Virus record (IMG/VR): IMGVR_UViG_3300047550_003367
Coordinates: 1-21,081 of that record
From: a virus
Length of the DNA stretch: 21,081 nucleotides
Reading direction: 5' to 3' (one strand)
Below are positions 3,501 to 20,065 of the stretch, piece by piece. The notes under the pieces were generated by a model that did not search any database, was not told where the DNA came from, and was given only the letters and a program-made list of their open reading frames with translations. Within the stretch, counting starts at the first letter, position 1. Each line of letters begins with the position of its first letter. The translations under genes were made by a program, and so were the position numbers.

Positions 3501-3674
3501 ATGAACTCAATGAAAGTTGAATTGGCAATTGTTCTAACTCTCTTAGCAGTTTCTATCTTTACGTTGGTCAATACATTTACAGACTGGGTTCCAGATGTAT
3601 ACGGTATTGCTGCTATGAATCTGTTAATATTATTTCATGTATTATGGATGCGTAAGTATGGCGACAAGACGTAA
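3501..3674 (+). CDS. Small two-helix membrane protein
   Basis: A 57-residue protein with two hydrophobic segments, about residues 8-24 (LAIVLTLLAVSIFTLV) and 36-51 (GIAAMNLLILFHVLWM), and a short basic C-terminus. The start at 3501 is chosen because GGAG lies at 3490-3493, 7 bases upstream. The frame is open further upstream, but that part falls in the GC-rich structured gap and does not look coding. It overlaps the next gene by 17 bases, which suggests that the two inner-membrane or exported proteins are made together. The function is unknown. Placement inside the replication operon could be incidental. Confidence 0.7.
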   Translation: MNSMKVELAIVLTLLAVSIFTLVNTFTDWVPDVYGIAAMNLLILFHVLWMRKYGDKT

Positions 3675-3981
3675 TTTCTTCAAGTATCTTGGTCTTGGCG
3701 CAGGTGTAGCATCAGGTGGTGTTGTTGCTGCCGCTGCTATTCTACCAGACTCAGACAAATCCAAAGCAATCAAAGAAATTCAAGCCGATGGCTTCAATGG
3801 CAAACTAACCCTTGGAGCAGAATACGGCGAGATCGTCCCACCAAAACCAAATCAATATACTTTTGGTCGGGAATATGTTGCAGGCACTCGCAAAAATGTG
3901 CAAGCAAGTATTGCTGTCGGTCCAGACGGAAACTTGTACTTAAATCAGAACGGTAAATGGCGTAGAATAGTCACTGAATAA
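3658..3981 (+). CDS. Small exported protein with Tat-type signal
   Basis: A 107-residue protein. Its N-terminus carries TRRNFFK (residues 3-9), which fits the twin-arginine motif S/T-R-R-x-F-x-K. A moderately hydrophobic Gly/Ala-rich stretch follows (about 10-29), ending before LPDSD. This is what a Tat signal peptide or signal anchor looks like; no lipobox Cys is present. The mature part of about 75 residues looks strand-rich and ends in DGNLYLNQNGKWRR. The ATG at 3658 is preferred over one at 3637 because it places the twin Arg at positions 4 and 5. It overlaps the small membrane protein by 17 bases and precedes gp44. Phage-coded Tat substrates are uncommon; the function is unknown. Confidence 0.7.
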   Translation: MATRRNFFKYLGLGAGVASGGVVAAAAILPDSDKSKAIKEIQADGFNGKLTLGAEYGEIVPPKPNQYTFGREYVAGTRKNVQASIAVGPDGNLYLNQNGKWRRIVTE

Positions 3982-12210: not shown

Positions 12211-12695
12211 AAGTCACGATTGGCAAGTACCCTAAAAAGGGCGAGCAAAAGATTTCAGTTCGTATTGATCCATGGGACACTTGGTCTATGGATCGTACAC
12301 TTGCGCTAATCGTCCATCCAATGCTCAAACAGTTGCTCAAGACCAATCACGGCGCACCTTGCACTGATGATGACGATGTGCCTGAGCATCTTCGATCTAC
12401 CAATGCCAAGCCAAAAAAGAATGATTGGGATACAGACTCTAATCACTTCAAGCGTTGGGACTGGATCATGAAAGAAATGATCTGGGCGTTTGGTGAACTT
12501 GTCAAAGATCGCGACCCAAACTTCTGCATCAAGAAAGGTAAATACAAATGGGTGCAGAAAGAAGGTGAAGAATGGAGCGAAATGGTAACTGTTGTTGAGC
12601 CAGTTTATGATATGGAAAAGATGAAAGCATATCATTTACGCAAGAAGAATGCTTTCCGTTTGTTTGGTAAATATTACGAAAATCTTTGGGATTGA
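12207..12695 (+). CDS. Conserved T4-like phage hypothetical protein
   Basis: A 162-residue hydrophilic protein with conserved-looking segments: VRIDPWDTWSMDRTLALIVHPML (N-terminal), HGAPCTDDDDVPEHLRS, FKRWDWIMKEMIWAF and a C-terminal AFRLFGKYYENLWD. Proteins with the IDPWDTWSMDxTLA, GAPxTDxxDVPEHLR and RWDxIxxEMIWAF segments are widespread in T4-like and other aquatic phages, from memory; I know of no function. It overlaps the upstream mini-gene by 4 bases and ends 1 base before the tailoring cluster begins, so it marks the boundary between the small early genes and that cluster. Confidence 0.78.
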   Translation: MKVTIGKYPKKGEQKISVRIDPWDTWSMDRTLALIVHPMLKQLLKTNHGAPCTDDDDVPEHLRSTNAKPKKNDWDTDSNHFKRWDWIMKEMIWAFGELVKDRDPNFCIKKGKYKWVQKEGEEWSEMVTVVEPVYDMEKMKAYHLRKKNAFRLFGKYYENLWD

Positions 12696-12696
12696 A

Positions 12697-13323
12697 ATGC
12701 TCATTGAAACACAAATATTAGAAAATTTTTTTGATGATCCAGAATCTGTAAAAAATTTTGCCATTTCTTCTAAATATTATCCATGCAATTTTTATCAATC
12801 AACATCGATTTATTCTGGATATAGATGCACAATACAAGATGAAAAAATAGAAAGTGAAATCATTTCAAAGATAAAAAAAATATTAGATAAAGATAATATA
12901 AAATTAAGTTCATGCTTTCATTTAAATACGAATACTAGTATGCTTGGCTTCCCGCATCATGATAGTCAAGATCCAAGAAGTTTTGCTGCAGTCATTTATC
13001 TAAATGAAAATGCTCCCGTAAATACAGGAACAAGTATCTTTAAGAATAAATCCACAGATTATGTGATTGAAAACTATACACATAAAATGCAAATAGTCTA
13101 TGATGTTTCTTTACCACCAAATAACTCTATAAAGCAAAAATTTGCCAAGGAAATTTTTGAGTATAAACAAAGTTTGACATTAGAAACTAAATCCGAAAAC
13201 GTATTTAATAGAATTTTCTTATATTCTTCTAAAAAATATCATTCACCAAATTTATATTTTGGCAAAAACATCCATGATGGAAGACTTACAATTGCAATAC
13301 ATGGATCAATCTATGCAAACTAA
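12697..13323 (+). CDS. Fe(II)/2-oxoglutarate oxygenase-like protein (DUF6445-like)
   Basis: A 208-residue protein with signs of the double-stranded beta-helix oxygenases. FPHHDSQD (85-92) supplies an HxD motif (His87, Asp89), YHSP (181-184) a distal His, and GRLTIAIHG (195-203) an Arg suited to binding 2-oxoglutarate. The overall order resembles DUF6445 proteins, though similarity is not strong. These enzymes hydroxylate amino acids, sugars or small molecules. The ATG at 12697 is preferred, since an upstream ATG lies inside the previous gene. The DNA is markedly A/T-rich with A-runs, unlike the gene before it, which suggests separate origin. Its end overlaps the NodS-like gene by 11 bases. 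Confidence 0.62.
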   Translation: MLIETQILENFFDDPESVKNFAISSKYYPCNFYQSTSIYSGYRCTIQDEKIESEIISKIKKILDKDNIKLSSCFHLNTNTSMLGFPHHDSQDPRSFAAVIYLNENAPVNTGTSIFKNKSTDYVIENYTHKMQIVYDVSLPPNNSIKQKFAKEIFEYKQSLTLETKSENVFNRIFLYSSKKYHSPNLYFGKNIHDGRLTIAIHGSIYAN

Positions 13324-13789
13324 AGAAGAATTAGAACAGTGGTATAAAAACCCAGATCCGTGGGCATATACAACCACGCACGACGATCAATATCGAAAAG
13401 ATAAATTATTAAATATCATAACGAAGCGTTACATCCGCGCACTAGATATTGGTTGCGGCGAAGGATTTGTGACTCGTGATCTTCCAGCAGAAGATATACA
13501 TGGTATTGAGTTATCTGATCTAGCAGCGTCTAGACTGCCATGGAACGTGAGACGAGTTCATGCTCCTGAAGGTTTATATGATCTTGTGATTACAACAGGA
13601 ACTTTGTACGAACAGTATAATCATGAACAGATTGCACAATGGATAAAAAATTGTGCATCTCGTCATGTTTTGGTTGCTGGAATCAAAGATTGGCTAAAAC
13701 CATACACCTTCGGGCATGTTATCACTCATACAGAATTTCCATACAGACAATTTATTCAATCGGTGACTTTATATGAAGTTGGCACATAA
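13313..13789 (+). CDS. NodS-like SAM methyltransferase
   Basis: A 158-residue compact methyltransferase. A short DPWAY segment (15-19) precedes motif I, ALDIGCGEGFVTRDLP (43-58), followed by the acidic strand HGIELSD. The DPW-Y start, the GCGEGxxTRDLP form and the small size are features of NodS-type enzymes. In rhizobia, NodS N-methylates the amine that NodB uncovers on the chitin oligomer. The downstream gene is NodB-like and overlaps by 17 bases, so the pair suggests the same two-step chemistry. The start could be the ATG at 13313 or at 13301; neither has a strong ribosome site. The actual substrate is unknown. Confidence 0.75.
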   Translation: MQTKEELEQWYKNPDPWAYTTTHDDQYRKDKLLNIITKRYIRALDIGCGEGFVTRDLPAEDIHGIELSDLAASRLPWNVRRVHAPEGLYDLVITTGTLYEQYNHEQIAQWIKNCASRHVLVAGIKDWLKPYTFGHVITHTEFPYRQFIQSVTLYEVGT

Positions 13790-14294
13790 TATTGGTAATA
13801 TACACCATCCAAATTATAACACTCGTGAACAGATCTTGGCTTGTAATGAGCCGATAGGTTTTGATGGTATTTACAAGAACGTCTATTACAATCAAGATGT
13901 TCTTGCAGGTAAGTCGGGTATTATGTTCGTAATGGGTGACTTTGTTGGTGGTGATAATGCATTTGATCTCCCGAACGTCCCGCGACTCGAGCAATATTGT
14001 ACATACGAAGAAGTTTGGCAAATTTGCGATAAGTATGGATTTGAAATGGGATGGCATACTTGGTCTCATCGTGATCTAACTAAATTGAATAAAGACGAAA
14101 TTATGGAAGAAGTTACGCCACCGATGGGAATGAAGATGAAATACTTTGCATATCCTTACGGCACATTCAACGATCTTGTAATTGAATGCGTAAAGGAAGC
14201 AGGATACGAAAAAGCATATTCTGTGATTCAGGGAAGTCAGAATCCGCATGATGTAGATTATAACTATAAGATCTATCGCGACTACATTAGATGA
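13773..14294 (+). CDS. NodB-like polysaccharide deacetylase (CE4), possibly divergent
   Basis: A 173-residue protein of the carbohydrate esterase 4 fold. The zinc-binding motif HTWSH is at 95-99, followed by RDLTKLNKDEI. FAYPYG (125-130) fits the R/F-x-PYG motif and is followed by a helix and GYEKAYSV. The first motif, normally TFDDG, reads GFDGIYKN (29-36) with a single Asp, so either the catalytic base or a metal ligand is missing or shifted. CE4 enzymes remove N- or O-acetyl groups from sugars in peptidoglycan, chitin or capsule. It lacks a signal peptide, so it would act in the cytoplasm, as NodB does. It overlaps the methyltransferase by 17 bases and the next gene by 4. Confidence 0.75.
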   Translation: MKLAHNIGNIHHPNYNTREQILACNEPIGFDGIYKNVYYNQDVLAGKSGIMFVMGDFVGGDNAFDLPNVPRLEQYCTYEEVWQICDKYGFEMGWHTWSHRDLTKLNKDEIMEEVTPPMGMKMKYFAYPYGTFNDLVIECVKEAGYEKAYSVIQGSQNPHDVDYNYKIYRDYIR

Positions 14295-15007
14295 AAAAAT
14301 TGTACGAAGAACTCGGTGTCATTGTAATACCAAGCATTTTTTCATCTATAGAATGTCAAGAAATAAAACAACAGGCATATTCTGTAAAAGATGAGGATAT
14401 AACAAATGCAGGATATCCTAACGTCGCCAGCGAAACAAAGTACAATAAAAAATCATTAATTTTCTTCCCAGCGTTATGTAACGAATACTTGAATTCTATA
14501 AGAATTGATAGTAGAATGGTAGAGTTAGTTCGTGAGTTTGTTGGGGATGATGTTCGACAAATAAACAATCAAATTTATTTTCGAGAACAAGGCGATCTGG
14601 ATGAATTCGCTTGGCATCAAGATACAATTTTTAGAGAGCCTCATATATTTTCCGATGACGTTGAATCAGATTACTTTCAAACAATTATTGCTGTAGACGA
14701 TATCACTGAGGAAAACGGAGCAATAGAGTTTATAGAGGGCTCACATAAAAAAATACAACTTTCAAAACCAACTGACTTGCGCGCATTTGAACGTGGAGAT
14801 CTAAAAGGAAAAAAATATACTGCCAAAAAAGGTGACGTATTGATTTGGTCAGTTAAGATTATTCACGGTAGCGAGAAGAACACTTCTAGTTCTGATCGTA
14901 TGACATATATGAATGGATTTTGTAGAACAAAAGCAGCTAAAACATACCCACATTATTTAATTGGAGGAAAGGTCGTACCAAAAATCGATCCAAAAATGAT
15001 ACCATGA
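14291..15007 (+). CDS. Phytanoyl-CoA dioxygenase (PhyH)-family oxygenase
   Basis: A 238-residue Fe(II)/2-oxoglutarate oxygenase of the PhyH family. WHQDT (108-112) gives the HxD metal motif (His109, Asp111), IIHGSEKN gives the distal His192, and the following DRMTYMNGF gives Arg203 for the co-substrate. ENGAIEFIEGSHK (141-153) is a hallmark strand of this family. Relatives hydroxylate fatty acyl chains, amino acids or sugars such as in antibiotic and surface-glycan synthesis. It overlaps the deacetylase by 4 bases (ATGA) and the following glycosyltransferase also by 4, so the three are tightly coupled. Confidence 0.85.
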   Translation: MKKLYEELGVIVIPSIFSSIECQEIKQQAYSVKDEDITNAGYPNVASETKYNKKSLIFFPALCNEYLNSIRIDSRMVELVREFVGDDVRQINNQIYFREQGDLDEFAWHQDTIFREPHIFSDDVESDYFQTIIAVDDITEENGAIEFIEGSHKKIQLSKPTDLRAFERGDLKGKKYTAKKGDVLIWSVKIIHGSEKNTSSSDRMTYMNGFCRTKAAKTYPHYLIGGKVVPKIDPKMIP

Positions 15008-15630
15008 TAACTGTTGTAATATCATCTTACAGGTATGGGCATCTTGCCGCGCATTGCATTGAAACAATTTTATCTCAGTCTACAAAACCTGAGAAAATAA
15101 TGTTTGTTGATGATGGTGTTGGTGATTGTCGACATATTCCTAATTTGTATCCTCAAGTTGAATTCTATGAAAACCCAACAAATCTTGGAACTGTTCACAA
15201 TTTTCAGAACATGCTAGGAAAAGTCACTACTGAATATTGTATGTTTATTGGAGCAGATAATTGGCTTCGATCAGATGCGATTGAAATGTTTAGTAAAGTA
15301 ATTGACATTCAGCAGCCAGATATAGTAACATATGATATGATTCTCACAGGCGAAGTGAAAGAAACAAGAGTGAAACATCACCCTGACGAAATGTGGCGAC
15401 ATCAAGGCGATTACTATTGGAGAAAGGATCATAAGCATCATGGCTCAATGCTTTATCGCACATCCTTGGCTAAATCTGTTGGCGGCTATGCTAAATATGG
15501 AAACTTCCACCAAACTCTGGAAGATTTAGGTTTATGGGGAAGAATGATCGAGGCTGGCGCCAAAGTTGCTAATGTGAATCAAGCATTTTTGTACTATCGC
15601 CATCACAAGGAAAATAATAACAAATATTGA
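15004..15630 (+). CDS. Family 2 glycosyltransferase
   Basis: A 208-residue GT-A enzyme with the family 2 pattern: VVISSYRYG near the start, FVDDGVG (34-40), ENPTNLGTVHNFQN (56-69), and FIGADNW (81-87) at the position of the DxD metal motif, here with the form GADN. LEDLGLWGRMIEAG supplies the ED acidic pair typical of catalytic bases in GT2 proteins. It is near the minimum size for the fold and has no membrane segment, so it may act on a soluble or nucleotide-linked acceptor. It overlaps the PhyH gene by 4 bases. Confidence 0.85.
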   Translation: MITVVISSYRYGHLAAHCIETILSQSTKPEKIMFVDDGVGDCRHIPNLYPQVEFYENPTNLGTVHNFQNMLGKVTTEYCMFIGADNWLRSDAIEMFSKVIDIQQPDIVTYDMILTGEVKETRVKHHPDEMWRHQGDYYWRKDHKHHGSMLYRTSLAKSVGGYAKYGNFHQTLEDLGLWGRMIEAGAKVANVNQAFLYYRHHKENNNKY

Positions 15631-15636
15631 GGTGTT

Positions 15637-16368
15637 ATGTATAACTTGATTGATTTCCGTCAATACTTTATTGACAAATATTACAAACAAGAATGGATCA
15701 ATTCTGCAAAACTAAACTTTGCGAACGCTGAACCATTTCCTCATATTGTAATCGACAACTTTCTCCCAGAAGAAGTTATGGACGCAGTTTTAGAATCATA
15801 TGACTCTTATGATTCGAGTCAATGGTTTCAATTTCAAAATGAGAACGAATTAAAACTTGCTTCGCGGCAAGAGATAATGATCCCTCAATTGGTTCGAAAT
15901 ATACTTCAAGAACTCAATTCTGGATATGTTCTTGATTGGTTAGAACATCTAACTGGAGTGCCAGGCATAGTTGCAGACACCAGATTATATGGCGGTGGAA
16001 TGCATAAAATTCAAAGTGGTGGGAAACTCGCTATTCACCAAGACTTCAACGTAGAAAATAGAACGCGACTGTATCGCCAACTCAATTTGCTTCTTTATTT
16101 AAACAAAGATTGGAAAGAAGAGTATGGTGGGCATTTAGAACTTTGGAATAGAGACAAAACCGAATGTGTTTTTAAAGTCGCTCCGATTTTCAATCGTTGC
16201 ATAATCTTTAACACTAATACTGGATATTCATGGCATGGACACCCCCATCCATTAAACACTCCAAAGGAAATCTCCAGAAAAAGTTTGGCTCTGTATTACT
16301 ACAATGTTGGTGAGGAAGCGGCAATTTTGGCTTCTATGCACGCAAGAAGCACCGTCTTTAAATCCTAA
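15637..16368 (+). CDS. Prolyl-4-hydroxylase-like Fe(II)/2-oxoglutarate oxygenase
   Basis: A 243-residue oxygenase. It starts with a PFPHIVIDNFLP segment (33-44) typical of 2OG-Fe(II) oxygenases in this group. IHQDFN (133-138) gives the HxD motif, GYSWHGHPHPL (196-206) a distal His, and SRKSLALYYY (213-222) the co-substrate Arg. YGGHLELW is also characteristic. Bacterial and phage relatives hydroxylate prolines or unknown partners and often sit by glycosyltransferases. GAGGTG precedes the ATG at 15637. It ends the first part of the cluster, before a late promoter. Confidence 0.85.
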   Translation: MYNLIDFRQYFIDKYYKQEWINSAKLNFANAEPFPHIVIDNFLPEEVMDAVLESYDSYDSSQWFQFQNENELKLASRQEIMIPQLVRNILQELNSGYVLDWLEHLTGVPGIVADTRLYGGGMHKIQSGGKLAIHQDFNVENRTRLYRQLNLLLYLNKDWKEEYGGHLELWNRDKTECVFKVAPIFNRCIIFNTNTGYSWHGHPHPLNTPKEISRKSLALYYYNVGEEAAILASMHARSTVFKS

Positions 16369-16384
16369 ATATCAGATATCGTTT

Positions 16385-16392
16385 TATAAATA
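16385..16392 (+). promoter_or_regulatory. T4-type late promoter in the tailoring cluster
   Basis: An exact TATAAATA in the 51-base gap before the FkbM gene. The predicted start is about 16398. GAGG at 16411-16414 supplies the ribosome site for the ATG at 16420. It implies that the downstream tailoring genes (FkbM to sulfotransferase and beyond) are made late, with virion proteins. Confidence 0.72.
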
Positions 16393-16419
16393 AACTAACC
16401 TATACATATAGAGGTTGAG

Positions 16420-17271
16420 ATGAAAAATATATTACCTGATGTCAAAATCTACATCAATCGCGACGACACCAAATTCGCTCTATTTGAACAAGAAGAGGTA
16501 ATCTCTGACGTCATAAGAGTTGATGGATATTGGAATCCCAAACTTCTTGATGTAGTCGAAAGAATTTTAAGTAAATCTTTTCCAGGAAATGTCGTAGATG
16601 TTGGTGCTGGAATAGGATCGTTTACTGTTCCACTAGCATCGCGCTTTACTGATAAATTTGTTTTTCATGCATTTGAACCACTTAAAATTGTTTTTATGCA
16701 ATTGGCGACAAATACATTACTTAATAATCTTGCAACAGTAAAACTTTACAACTATCCTCTCTCAAATGAAAAAAGGAGAGTGGAATATGGTATTCTAGAT
16801 GTAAGGCATAGCACAAATCACGGATCATTTTCTTTTCTTGAGAGAATAAATGATTTGAGAGGCATCCCACAAACAGAAGAAAAAGATGTTTATGAATTTA
16901 CGACTTTAGATTATTTTTCTCTTAAGAATGTTAGATTGATCAAAATTTCTGGTCAAGGAATGGATAATGAAATTCTTCAAGGTGCAAAAGAAACTATTTT
17001 AAATAATGATCACCCACCTATTCTATTTGAGTTTTGGGATAATGATTGGTATCAAGAAGAAAAAGATAAAATTGCTAAATTTTTAGAAGAAATGGGTTAC
17101 ACATTTAATACTTATGTTGATAATTATCAACTTGCGTTTAAGAATGATGCAAAATTTGACTTTTTTATGTCTGATGAACCAACTGAGATTTCTGGTGAAT
17201 ACGTTATTTCTGAAAAAGAACATGATACTGATAAAACATTAGAAGATCAAAAAGTGTATTTACCAAAATAA
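16420..17271 (+). CDS. FkbM-family methyltransferase
   Basis: A 283-residue protein. Motif I is VVDVGAGIGSFT (58-69), followed by FHAFEPL (82-88), the TTLDYF strand (161-166) and LIKISGQGMDNEILQGA (173-189), which corresponds to the IKIDVEGxExxVLxGA segment of FkbM enzymes. Here the usual Asp after IKI is Ser, a variant that could affect binding. FkbM methyltransferases O-methylate sugars or polyketides. The acidic tail after about residue 250 is extra. It is the first gene behind the late promoter and is followed 1 base later by a glycosyltransferase. Confidence 0.85.
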   Translation: MKNILPDVKIYINRDDTKFALFEQEEVISDVIRVDGYWNPKLLDVVERILSKSFPGNVVDVGAGIGSFTVPLASRFTDKFVFHAFEPLKIVFMQLATNTLLNNLATVKLYNYPLSNEKRRVEYGILDVRHSTNHGSFSFLERINDLRGIPQTEEKDVYEFTTLDYFSLKNVRLIKISGQGMDNEILQGAKETILNNDHPPILFEFWDNDWYQEEKDKIAKFLEEMGYTFNTYVDNYQLAFKNDAKFDFFMSDEPTEISGEYVISEKEHDTDKTLEDQKVYLPK

Positions 17272-17272
17272 T

Positions 17273-18037
17273 ATGAATGTTTCTGTTATTACGCCAACCA
17301 CTGGCAATCCTTATCTTGCAGAATGCATTAAATCCGTTCGAGCCCAAACTTATAAAAACATCGAGCACATTGTCGTTGTTGATGGTGAGGAAAGATGGGG
17401 TGCAACTCAAGGAATTCTTTACGACGTGCAATTTCCGCAAGGCTCAGAACGTGGAGCAAATAGCAATGAACACGTTTGTATTTTGCCATATCCCACAGGC
17501 ATCAATCGCTACAACGGTCATCGCGTCTACGGTGCTGCAACTTATTTCGCAGATGGCGATTATCATATTTGGTTAGATGATGATAACATTCTTGAGCCGA
17601 ATCACATTGAGAGTTTAGTCAAACTCGTTCAAGAAAAAAATCTTCATTGGGCTTTCTCACTTCGAAAGATCATTGACAAAGACGGCAACGTTCTTTGTTT
17701 AGATGATTGTGAGAGTCTTGGTCTTTGGCCAAGCATTTTGCATCCTGAAGATTTCTTCGTTGATGTCAACTGTTACTTTGTAAAAAAGGAAATTGCAGTT
17801 GGTATGTCACCTGTGTGGTATCGCAAGTTTAGAGAACCTGGTCAGCCAGAGATTGATCGTGCAATTGCTGGAACTCTGATGGCAAAACAAAATAATCTAA
17901 AGTTTGACTGCACACGTGATCATACGGTAAAATATAGAGTCGGAAATACTGGTCTTTCTGTACAAGCAGAGTTTTTCCTTCAGGGAAACCAAAAGATGTT
18001 AGAAAGATATAATGGAGTTCTTCCATGGAAAATTTGA
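17273..18037 (+). CDS. Family 2 glycosyltransferase
   Basis: A 254-residue GT-A enzyme. It begins VSVITPTTGNPYLAECIKSV, with IVVVDGEE (33-40) and the metal motif LDDDN (101-105) in WLDDDNILEPNHI. A later EIDRA segment could supply the acidic base. Unlike the GT2 at 15004, the donor-site loop is longer and includes HRVYGAATYFA, so the two probably transfer different sugars. Codon use is less A/T-rich than in the next gene. Its 3' end overlaps the next gene by 13 bases. Confidence 0.87.
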   Translation: MNVSVITPTTGNPYLAECIKSVRAQTYKNIEHIVVVDGEERWGATQGILYDVQFPQGSERGANSNEHVCILPYPTGINRYNGHRVYGAATYFADGDYHIWLDDDNILEPNHIESLVKLVQEKNLHWAFSLRKIIDKDGNVLCLDDCESLGLWPSILHPEDFFVDVNCYFVKKEIAVGMSPVWYRKFREPGQPEIDRAIAGTLMAKQNNLKFDCTRDHTVKYRVGNTGLSVQAEFFLQGNQKMLERYNGVLPWKI

Positions 18038-18729
18038 TAAATTCTTTCCAAGAAAAGATAGAAAATTCAATTGACAGTGCAATCCAAAATTATAATTGGA
18101 ATGGAATATCAATTTTACCAGAAAAATTACAAAGTTTAAGAGGATACTCTCCAAAAGAAACAAGAGTCTTTCTTAATAATTTAATGGATGAAAATTCTAG
18201 ATATTTAGAAATTGGATTGCATCGGGGAGCATCATTTTTTTCTGCATTATATCTCAACAATCTTAAAACTGCAATTGGTATTGATAATTTTGGTGGACCT
18301 GTTTATGATGATTTATTGAAATATGGTTTATTAGATCTTTCAGAAGAATTTGATTTGAAGTATGGCATCGATTATGACGTCATATTTGATGATTGTTATA
18401 ATTTGAAAGAAAAGGAACAAAATAAATTAAAAAAATTGAAATTTAATGTTTACTATTATGATGGTCCACACAACAAAAATGATCATATAAAATCTTTAGT
18501 AAATTATGCGCAGTATATGGATGATGTTTTTATTTTTTTAGTCAATGATTGGTTTTATCCACCAGTCAGTGAGGGAACGAAAATTGGTATCGATAAAAGT
18601 GGAGTGACAGTTTTGAAAGAATGGATATTAGGTGAATCTGAAGAGCATAAAAGTGAAGAAATTTGGAAGAATGGATTGTATGTTTCTATAGTACAAAATA
18701 AAAAGAGTGATGACCACAATCTGATTTAA
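18025..18729 (+). CDS. Class I SAM methyltransferase-like protein
   Basis: A 234-residue protein. Motif I is YLEIGLHRGAS (60-70), then IGIDNFGGP (84-92), and the YYYDGPHNKNDH segment (143-154) corresponds to FIDGDHSYE of the Methyltransf_24 group to which the gene at 5710 also belongs. FLVNDWFYPP (171-180) follows where that family has GHDY. It could O-methylate a sugar or be an inactive relative, as DGPH differs from DGDH. The DNA is very A/T-rich, like the sulfotransferase after it, so the two may have arrived together. Confidence 0.75.
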   Translation: MENLINSFQEKIENSIDSAIQNYNWNGISILPEKLQSLRGYSPKETRVFLNNLMDENSRYLEIGLHRGASFFSALYLNNLKTAIGIDNFGGPVYDDLLKYGLLDLSEEFDLKYGIDYDVIFDDCYNLKEKEQNKLKKLKFNVYYYDGPHNKNDHIKSLVNYAQYMDDVFIFLVNDWFYPPVSEGTKIGIDKSGVTVLKEWILGESEEHKSEEIWKNGLYVSIVQNKKSDDHNLI

Positions 18730-18731
18730 AT

Positions 18732-19382
18732 ATGGTTAATTGCGAAAAACCGTTTTTAATTTATGCTTTACCAAGATCCAGAAGCACTGCGATTCTTCAA
18801 GCCTCGAAAAAACCTATCATCATTTATGAACCGTTCAATCCAAATATTCGCAATTCTTCAGAAGTATCATGGTATGAATTAAAAAACCAATTAAACAATA
18901 AAGATGCATCAATAAAAATTCTATGCAGTCATTTTAAAAAATTTCATAAAGCAAAGATTTGGTATGATCATGTTCAACGAGAAAAGCGATTTAAAATCTT
19001 TGTTGTTCAAAGAGACATAAGAGAAATTTGTCATAGTTATATGATTGCGCCGTTTGTTGGTTTTGAAAAACAATATGAGTCAAGAGAAAAAGATTTAAAG
19101 GGGAAGATAGAAATTCAGATTAATGAGATTGAATTTGAAGATTTATTAACGACAACATTTCAATCGTTTTTAGATTTTTTTCCAGAATACGGAACAGTTA
19201 TAAATTGGAAAAATCTTCCAGAAGATTTTTTTGATAAAACAAAAGTGAATATTCAAGAGCAATTCTCACAAACTAAATTAGACCTTGTAAAAAACTTAGA
19301 CTCTTGTTTATTGATCGTTGAAAAAATAGTCAAACAATTTGAACCGTTGATTGATGATAAGTTGTGTAAATTAAGAGAGTGA
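18732..19382 (+). CDS. PAPS-dependent sulfotransferase-like protein
   Basis: A 216-residue protein. YALPRSRST (11-19) has the form of the 5'-phosphosulfate loop and VVQRDIREICHS (91-102) the 3'-phosphate-binding strand with its Arg and Ser, the two signatures of P-loop sulfotransferases. Between them IYEPFNPN could hold the catalytic segment. Such enzymes move sulfate from PAPS to sugars, lipids or proteins; the phage has no PAPS-making genes in this window, so host PAPS would be used. The sequence is A/T-rich. It starts 2 bases after the methyltransferase stop and overlaps the next gene's extended start. Confidence 0.78.
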   Translation: MVNCEKPFLIYALPRSRSTAILQASKKPIIIYEPFNPNIRNSSEVSWYELKNQLNNKDASIKILCSHFKKFHKAKIWYDHVQREKRFKIFVVQRDIREICHSYMIAPFVGFEKQYESREKDLKGKIEIQINEIEFEDLLTTTFQSFLDFFPEYGTVINWKNLPEDFFDKTKVNIQEQFSQTKLDLVKNLDSCLLIVEKIVKQFEPLIDDKLCKLRE

Positions 19383-19387
19383 ACATT

Positions 19388-20065
19388 ATGAATCCTTGTA
19401 TTGCCTCAATTTTTATGAAAAATATTGATCAGAACACTGTTGCACTACAACAACAGGTTGTGAAAAAATTTAATAAATCAAACATCGCACATTATCCTGT
19501 ATTAACTGAAGCAAATCCTGGATACACGATGGATAAACTTGTTGAAATGCTTGAGAAGCGAGGGCATGATGCAATTATGTTCCTTGATATTGATTGTGTT
19601 CCAGTAAATGATGTTGCGCTTGATTACTTTTTTGAACAAGCATACGCAGGCAAAGTGATCGGTGATGCTCAACGCAGCAATCATATTCAAAATGATCAAC
19701 ATGTATTCTGTGCTCCACATAATGTAACTTTTACGATTAAGAATTATCGTAAATGTGGTAACCCATCATTCTTGCCTAACCATCGAGGTGATGTTGCAGA
19801 AGAGTTGACTTTTAGAGCAAGAGAGAATAATATATCAGTAGAGATTGTAATGCCATTGCGTTACGATGCTCCACCAATTCGTATGGATTGGGAACCTAAA
19901 GATCTTCCTCCATATTGGGATCTTGCTGATGGCATGCCAAAATATGGTATTGGCACGACATTTGGAAATGATAGTGGTGATTTGTTCTGGCACAATTATC
20001 AAATTTTTCATCCAGGACAACAAGAACGCTTCTGGAAGAAGTGTGAGGAACTATTAAATGGCTAA
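19388..20065 (+). CDS. GT-A fold glycosyltransferase-like protein
   Basis: A 225-residue protein with the metal motif FLDIDCVP (65-72), placed after a helix as in GT-A enzymes. Later segments are HVFCAPHNVTF, a GDVAEELTFRA helix that could supply the acidic base, and WHNYQIFHPGQQERFW with a His that could bind metal. It fits a glycosyltransferase with an unusual C-terminal half; it may also be a DxD-containing relative without transfer activity. The ATG at 19388 is preferred to the in-frame GTG at 19379 because the GAGAG site lies at a suitable distance. It is the last enzyme of the tailoring cluster. Confidence 0.66.
   Translation: MNPCIASIFMKNIDQNTVALQQQVVKKFNKSNIAHYPVLTEANPGYTMDKLVEMLEKRGHDAIMFLDIDCVPVNDVALDYFFEQAYAGKVIGDAQRSNHIQNDQHVFCAPHNVTFTIKNYRKCGNPSFLPNHRGDVAEELTFRARENNISVEIVMPLRYDAPPIRMDWEPKDLPPYWDLADGMPKYGIGTTFGNDSGDLFWHNYQIFHPGQQERFWKKCEELLNG

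Follow-up and report, generated by a model that had tools for sequence, protein, structure and literature searches.

A NodS-like methyltransferase, an FDG-type CE4-like protein and a glycosyltransferase in a conserved cassette of phages and bacteria, read as a glycan-tailoring system

Nod factors are deacetylated and then N-methylated at the sugar end, and phage 'LPS gene clusters' were first described in T4-like cyanophages. In rhizobia, NodS acts only after deacetylation by NodB (PMC5080398), and the NodS-related WbdD caps O-antigen chains by methylating the terminal phosphate (PMC3482155). Within the CE4 family, a circular permutation marks the PgaB-type subgroup (PMC5855634), and the BA0330-type has its catalytic His within an N-terminal LMYH motif and an Arg on the last strand (PMC4505593, PMC6115787). 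In the open-access literature, we found no description of a phage NodB/NodS-type pair. The initial annotation of the DNA considered here had proposed such a pair as the core of an undescribed sugar-tailoring system, and this part of the proposal is supported: we find a conserved cassette that also contains a GT2 glycosyltransferase and usually a PhyH oxygenase. In our reading, it is a portable cassette for glycan tailoring that has not been described before, and in the phage it forms part of a larger glycan cluster.

The window, that is, the whole 21-kb stretch analysed (21,081 nucleotides), is a fragment from a virus record carrying T4-like replication genes (by eye, clamp and clamp loader). 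Its gp44 is about 60% identical to the gp44 of cyanophages, its nearest relatives, yet no psbA/psbD-type gene was found in the window or in 14 related viral records, all of them fragments, and a cyanophage origin was not adopted. The replication region also encodes, at positions 3637-3981, a small protein in which MATRRNFFKYLGLGAGVASGGVVAAAA, close to the N-terminus, resembles a twin-arginine signal peptide, an unusual feature in such a region of a phage. The glycan cluster comprises the following features.

12694-13323, plus strand: DUF6445 protein (phrog_1644), possibly 2OG-oxygenase related, with an 11-nt overlap with the MT start
13313-13789, plus strand: MT, a NodS-like class I SAM methyltransferase of 158 aa, with a DPW N-terminal motif and the SAM motif LDIGCGEGF
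13773-14294, plus strand: FDG-type CE4-like protein of 173 aa, which keeps H5, D31, H95, H99, P128 and R169 and has G32 in place of the metal Asp
14291-15007, plus strand: PhyH-type 2OG-Fe(II) oxygenase, with the facial triad WHQD...H by inspection
15004-15630, plus strand: GT2a, a short glycosyltransferase of GT-A type, orthologous to the GT2 domain that bacteria carry in fusion with the FDG CE4 domain
15637-20065, plus strand: variable outer part of the glycan cluster, with a 2OG oxygenase, an FkbM methyltransferase, GT2b, and methyltransferase-like, sulfotransferase-like and glycosyltransferase-like proteins (the last two by eye)

From 12694 to 15630, these genes (DUF6445, MT, CE4-like, PhyH and GT2a) form a run of overlapping genes. 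The two central ORFs are both present as originally described, with the MT stop codon (TAA, 13787-13789) at the end of their 17-nt overlap (13773-13789), and the PhyH gene overlaps the CE4-like gene by 4 nt. The MT start at 13313 is backed by the family alignment, in which MQTKEELE or a near variant opens almost all homologues. The proposed setting among glycosyltransferases and oxygenases also held, the neighbours being, by Pfam, DUF6445, PhyH, GT2, a 2OG-Fe(II) oxygenase, an FkbM methyltransferase and a further GT2. The DUF6445 gene is shared with close relatives only. Its product and that of 15637-16368 both match phrog_1644 ('minor coat protein') and phrog_274 ('DNA endonuclease V'), labels that look wrong because Pfam clearly assigns the latter product to the 2OG-Fe(II) oxygenases; DUF6445 may itself be related to the 2OG oxygenases. 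Further out, the product of 18732-19382 carries, close to its N-terminus, PRSRST, which is reminiscent of a sulfotransferase P-loop, and finds no match in Pfam or PHROG; if it is a sulfotransferase, it would bring a sulfate step into the glycan cluster.

The AlphaFold2 model of the methyltransferase, METHYLTRANSFERASE (13313-13789), has a pLDDT of 95.9. NodS in complex with SAH (PDB 3ofk) is its top structural match in VIA-align (Z 18.6, next 16.5) and ranks first in Foldseek as well, and NodS is the top PDB match for the MT family profile (E 1.5e-5, with the DPW region aligned). The initial assignment as NodS-like is thus borne out by both aligners and by the profile, and structure prediction places MT nearest to NodS. 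Membership of the NodS family itself is ruled out by the family models: the scores lie below the cut-off of the NodS Pfam PF05401 (16.5 vs 24 bits) and far under that of the NCBIfam NodS model NF041650 (15.7 vs 300), and Methyltransf_23 is missed as well (23.9 vs 27). Judged by its predicted structure, MT works in the manner of a NodS-fold methyltransferase, but the family models do not class it as NodS. Since the NodS fold is also the one nearest to WbdD, it is compatible with N, O or phosphate as the acceptor. A conserved Tyr, Y99, aligns with a Tyr of NodS, and the dN/dS of about 0.08 (window vs locus L002) indicates purifying selection. PHROGs hold no match for MT or for the CE4-like protein.

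For the CE4-like protein, the profile search proposed at the outset succeeded where that with the NodS profile stayed sub-threshold: PF01522 (Polysacc_deac_1) is matched above cut-off with an E of 3.8e-10, over residues 79-146 only. Its AlphaFold2 model (pLDDT 91.8) finds its closest folds in IcaB, BA0331 (6go1), BC0361, BA0330 and PplD (Z 15.4-15.9), followed by PgaB (14.0), and the remaining CE4 enzymes match at Z 8-9 only. The unpermuted CE4 order with a C-terminal motif 5 is not found; the catalytic His is N-terminal, and the protein ends after the Arg strand. H5 corresponds to the LMYH (MT5') His of the permuted group (PMC4505593, PMC6115787), the N-termini reading LMYH or LLYH in the bacterial FDG proteins and L-A-H-N-I-G in those of phages. 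On the evidence of the model, we place the protein in the circularly permuted IcaB/PgaB/BA0330 subgroup of CE4. Of the NodB-like deacetylase originally claimed, the broad NodB homology domain therefore remains (permuted CE4 fold, Z 15.9), while NodB proper is ruled out by the NodB equivalog TIGR04243 (17.5 bits vs a cut-off of 240), and the metal site, whose absence would have counted against the claim, is half there, with both metal His kept and the metal-ligand Asp replaced by Gly.

Among 48 unique FDG domains, H5, D31, W94, H95, H99 and P128 are invariant (48/48) and Arg169 is kept in 43. The catalytic base Asp (D31) and the N-terminal catalytic His (H5) are thus retained throughout, and CE4 motif 2, H(S/T)xxH, is present as WHTWSH with both metal His in 48/48; in CE4 motif 1, TFDDG, the metal-binding second Asp is Gly in every one of the 48. 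Nearly all complete members read FDG[IVP]Y, the one exception being WDGIY (L204), and a gap-free alignment sets TFDDGYKS of the cyanobacterial relatives L141/L142 against TFDGIYKN of the cassette proteins. FDG is accompanied by the Trp before the first metal His and by MT, and the TFDDG relatives have neither. From this co-occurrence, we read the FDG active site as a probable case of coordinated remodelling instead of decay, and the invariance of H5, D31, W94, H95, H99 and P128 argues that the site works. The gene is under purifying selection, with a dN/dS of about 0.03 (window vs locus L002).

The same residues can be read in another way, namely that the FDG protein is a pseudoenzyme that binds glycan as a subunit or scaffold and offers the chain to MT and GT2, and that MT caps a hydroxyl or phosphate in the way of WbdD in the O9a O-antigen. 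The Gly in all members would fit such a role, as would the lack of deacetylase activity in the close structural relatives BA0330 and BA0331 (PMC4505593), the example of BA0150, which has neither triad nor metal (PMC5855634), the strict coupling of MT to FDG and its absence from TFDDG relatives, and the fact that the WbdD methyltransferase domain is closest to NodS (PMC3482155). CE4 pseudoenzymes do exist, BA3943 being named as one in the PDB titles among our fold matches. A mere scaffold, however, would be expected to shed some catalytic residues, whereas D31, both metal His, the N-terminal catalytic His and the Pro persist in 48/48 and Arg169 in 43/48, at a very low dN/dS, and we consider the pseudoenzyme somewhat unlikely. 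More doubtful still, in our estimation, is that the CE4-like protein is some other active hydrolase (an O-deacetylase, a deformylase or a metal-independent amidase) and that MT O-methylates the freed hydroxyl. The concerted change of FDG with WHT speaks for this, O-acetyl esterases occur within CE4 (PMC4505593), and BA0150, though devoid of triad and metal, has been proposed to retain some other hydrolytic activity (PMC5855634); against it, the nearest folds are IcaB/PgaB-type N-deacetylases or proteins of unproven activity, and the nearest methyltransferase, NodS, is an N-methyltransferase. Tentatively, and with less than even confidence, we suggest that the FDG proteins constitute a distinct class of active CE4 hydrolases with a remodelled active site, acting only in concert with a NodS-like MT and a GT2, in a portable glycan-capping module that phages and bacteria exchange and that is independent of the rhizobial NodB-NodS.

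To what extent the genes belong together can be judged from searches in both directions. The MT-based viral search gave 56 loci, two of which end at a contig edge and two of which are weak unrelated matches; in all of the remaining 52 complete loci, the CE4-like gene lies directly downstream of MT, and most close relatives preserve the exact 17-nt overlap. Starting independently from the CE4-like protein, we retrieved 63 distinct ORFs, and after one incomplete ORF and one ordinary FDD-type CE4 without MT were left out, MT was found directly upstream of 60 of 61 complete genes. The exception, locus L212 (6001-6492), is the sole FDG/WHT CE4-like gene found without MT; it sits between glycosyltransferases, adjoins a capsid-like gene, and weakens the strictness of the partnership. 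A GT2a-type gene follows the CE4-like gene in almost all viral loci, with or without the PhyH gene between them. Pairwise distances of MT, CE4 and GT2 correlate with Mantel r of 0.85-0.90, a value reached in none of 2000 permutations and reflecting in part the common descent of one operon. The viral loci come from a single collection and include near-identical contigs; the cassette occurs in dozens of further phages across phage types, including a 40-kb podovirus, and in several bacterial phyla. A conserved cassette of MT, FDG CE4-like protein, GT2 and usually a PhyH oxygenase is thereby supported. That MT and the CE4-like gene are instead unrelated neighbours in a hypervariable glycan island, their adjacency being incidental, has in its favour that T4-like phages carry mosaic LPS-type clusters, for which even a role as stuffer DNA has been suggested (PMC3037559). 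Since 52/52 MT-retrieved and 60/61 CE4-retrieved loci carry the partner, the pairing is not due to chance, and with order and adjacency kept in both search directions across phage types and several bacterial phyla, a CE4-GT2 fusion and congruent divergence, we regard incidental adjacency as highly improbable.

The fusion is found in the bacterial copies, where MT is followed by a CE4-GT2 fusion protein in Nostoc, Mojavia, a Leptolyngbyaceae MAG, a Chitinophagales MAG and a Nomurabacteria MAG. When the window GT2a was compared with all ORFs flanking CE4 genes in 80 bacterial CE4 loci, its best matches were exactly the GT2s beside or fused to FDG CE4 domains (64-222 bits, next 27). MT accompanies all eight bacterial FDG domains found and is missing from about 45 TFDDG-type CE4 loci. 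Few bacteria carry the cassette: a search of three phyla at E 1e-25 matched 4 of 386, 2 of 379 and 1 of 395 genomes, and of the four matches in the first set, three are TFDDG proteins that lack MT. The bacterial loci are mostly MAGs, and one of them, L036, shows the phage order MT-CE4-PhyH-GT2 and may therefore be a contig of viral origin. In the cyanobacterial loci L039, L042 and L047, the CE4-GT2 fusions extend into more glycosyltransferase domains, up to 1390 aa, the C-terminus of the L042 protein being GT41-like. The Nomurabacteria operon contains a priming sugar transferase, two cytidylyltransferases, Wzm, Wzt with Wzt_C, two more GT2s and a GT6, and therefore appears to serve an ABC-exported surface polysaccharide (an O-antigen-type export cluster).

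Taken as a mobile glycan-tailoring cassette, the genes would act in the following order. In the cytoplasm, GT2a would add or extend a sugar; the CE4-like protein would free a position on this sugar, most likely by cleaving off an N-acyl group through its altered metal site; MT would then methylate what has been exposed, most likely an amine, in parallel to NodS acting after NodB; and the resulting surface glycan, on the host cell or on the virion, would be capped. We give this sequence of GT2a action, deacylation and methylation roughly an even chance. By analogy with the rhizobial pair, N-deacetylation followed by N-methylation is plausible, and since no signal peptide is apparent by eye in the CE4-like protein, the cassette proteins can all act in the cytoplasm on one nascent glycan. 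The deacetylation step is weakened by the Gly at the metal ligand in all 48 unique FDG domains, and by the observation that even the triad-complete relatives BA0330 and BA0331 can be inactive (PMC4505593). The most likely target is a cell-surface polysaccharide, because a Wzm/Wzt export locus contains one of the bacterial copies, and capping is the natural guess because the NodS-related WbdD caps ABC-exported chains. For the phage, the effect could be an altered host surface or altered virion glycans, and the N-methylated amino sugar and surface masking suggested in the initial annotation are plausible.

If this proposal is true, the order of deacetylation and N-methylation would have a second, unrelated-looking case in phages and bacterial surface-polysaccharide loci, and its logic would thus be general. 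The cassette would also give a concrete handle on the products of phage 'LPS gene clusters', the FDG motif allows all members to be found by a simple sequence signature, and the FDG proteins offer a natural test of CE4 chemistry without the metal aspartate.

Among known systems, the podovirus MW202801.1 (L035) comes closest in layout, with an adjoining 'drev methyltransferase' and 'nodB-like protein' (40-48% identity) between an upstream phyH and a downstream glycosyltransferase; the annotation there treats the two genes singly, and we found no description of it as a system in open-access papers. Further downstream in that genome, 15498-16085 is annotated as a ribosomal-protein-serine acetyltransferase and is possibly a sugar acetyltransferase. 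WbdD of E. coli O9a shares a NodS-related methyltransferase, and the Wzm/Wzt-exported polysaccharide that it caps has its parallel in the Wzm/Wzt locus of one bacterial cassette, but the cassette has a CE4-like partner in place of the kinase, and Y99 of MT matches the NodS Tyr where WbdD has His-His and Arg. With NodB, the CE4-like protein has in common the broad-sense NodB homology domain, the lack of an obvious signal peptide and the NodS-like and GT2 partners, whereas it departs from NodB in its family-model score (17.5 against 240) and lacks the classical order and C-terminal motif 5. It resembles the permuted CE4 proteins (IcaB 4wcj, BA0330 4v33, BC0361 4hd5, PplD 6dq3, PgaB 3vus) in fold (Z 14-15.9), N-terminal catalytic His, last-strand Arg and the (A)YPxG motif 3; unlike them, it has FDG instead of FDD in motif 1 and a Trp before the first metal His, is short, without an Fn3 domain or obvious signal peptide, and is tied to a methyltransferase. 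MT, finally, differs from NodS in sequence (17% identity), in length (158 vs about 200 aa) and in its context, which is not that of Nod factors, but NodS of Bradyrhizobium (3ofk/3ofj) is its closest profile match and shares its fold (Z 18.6, rmsd 2.1 Å over 157 residues), its DPW N-terminal motif and the matching Tyr.
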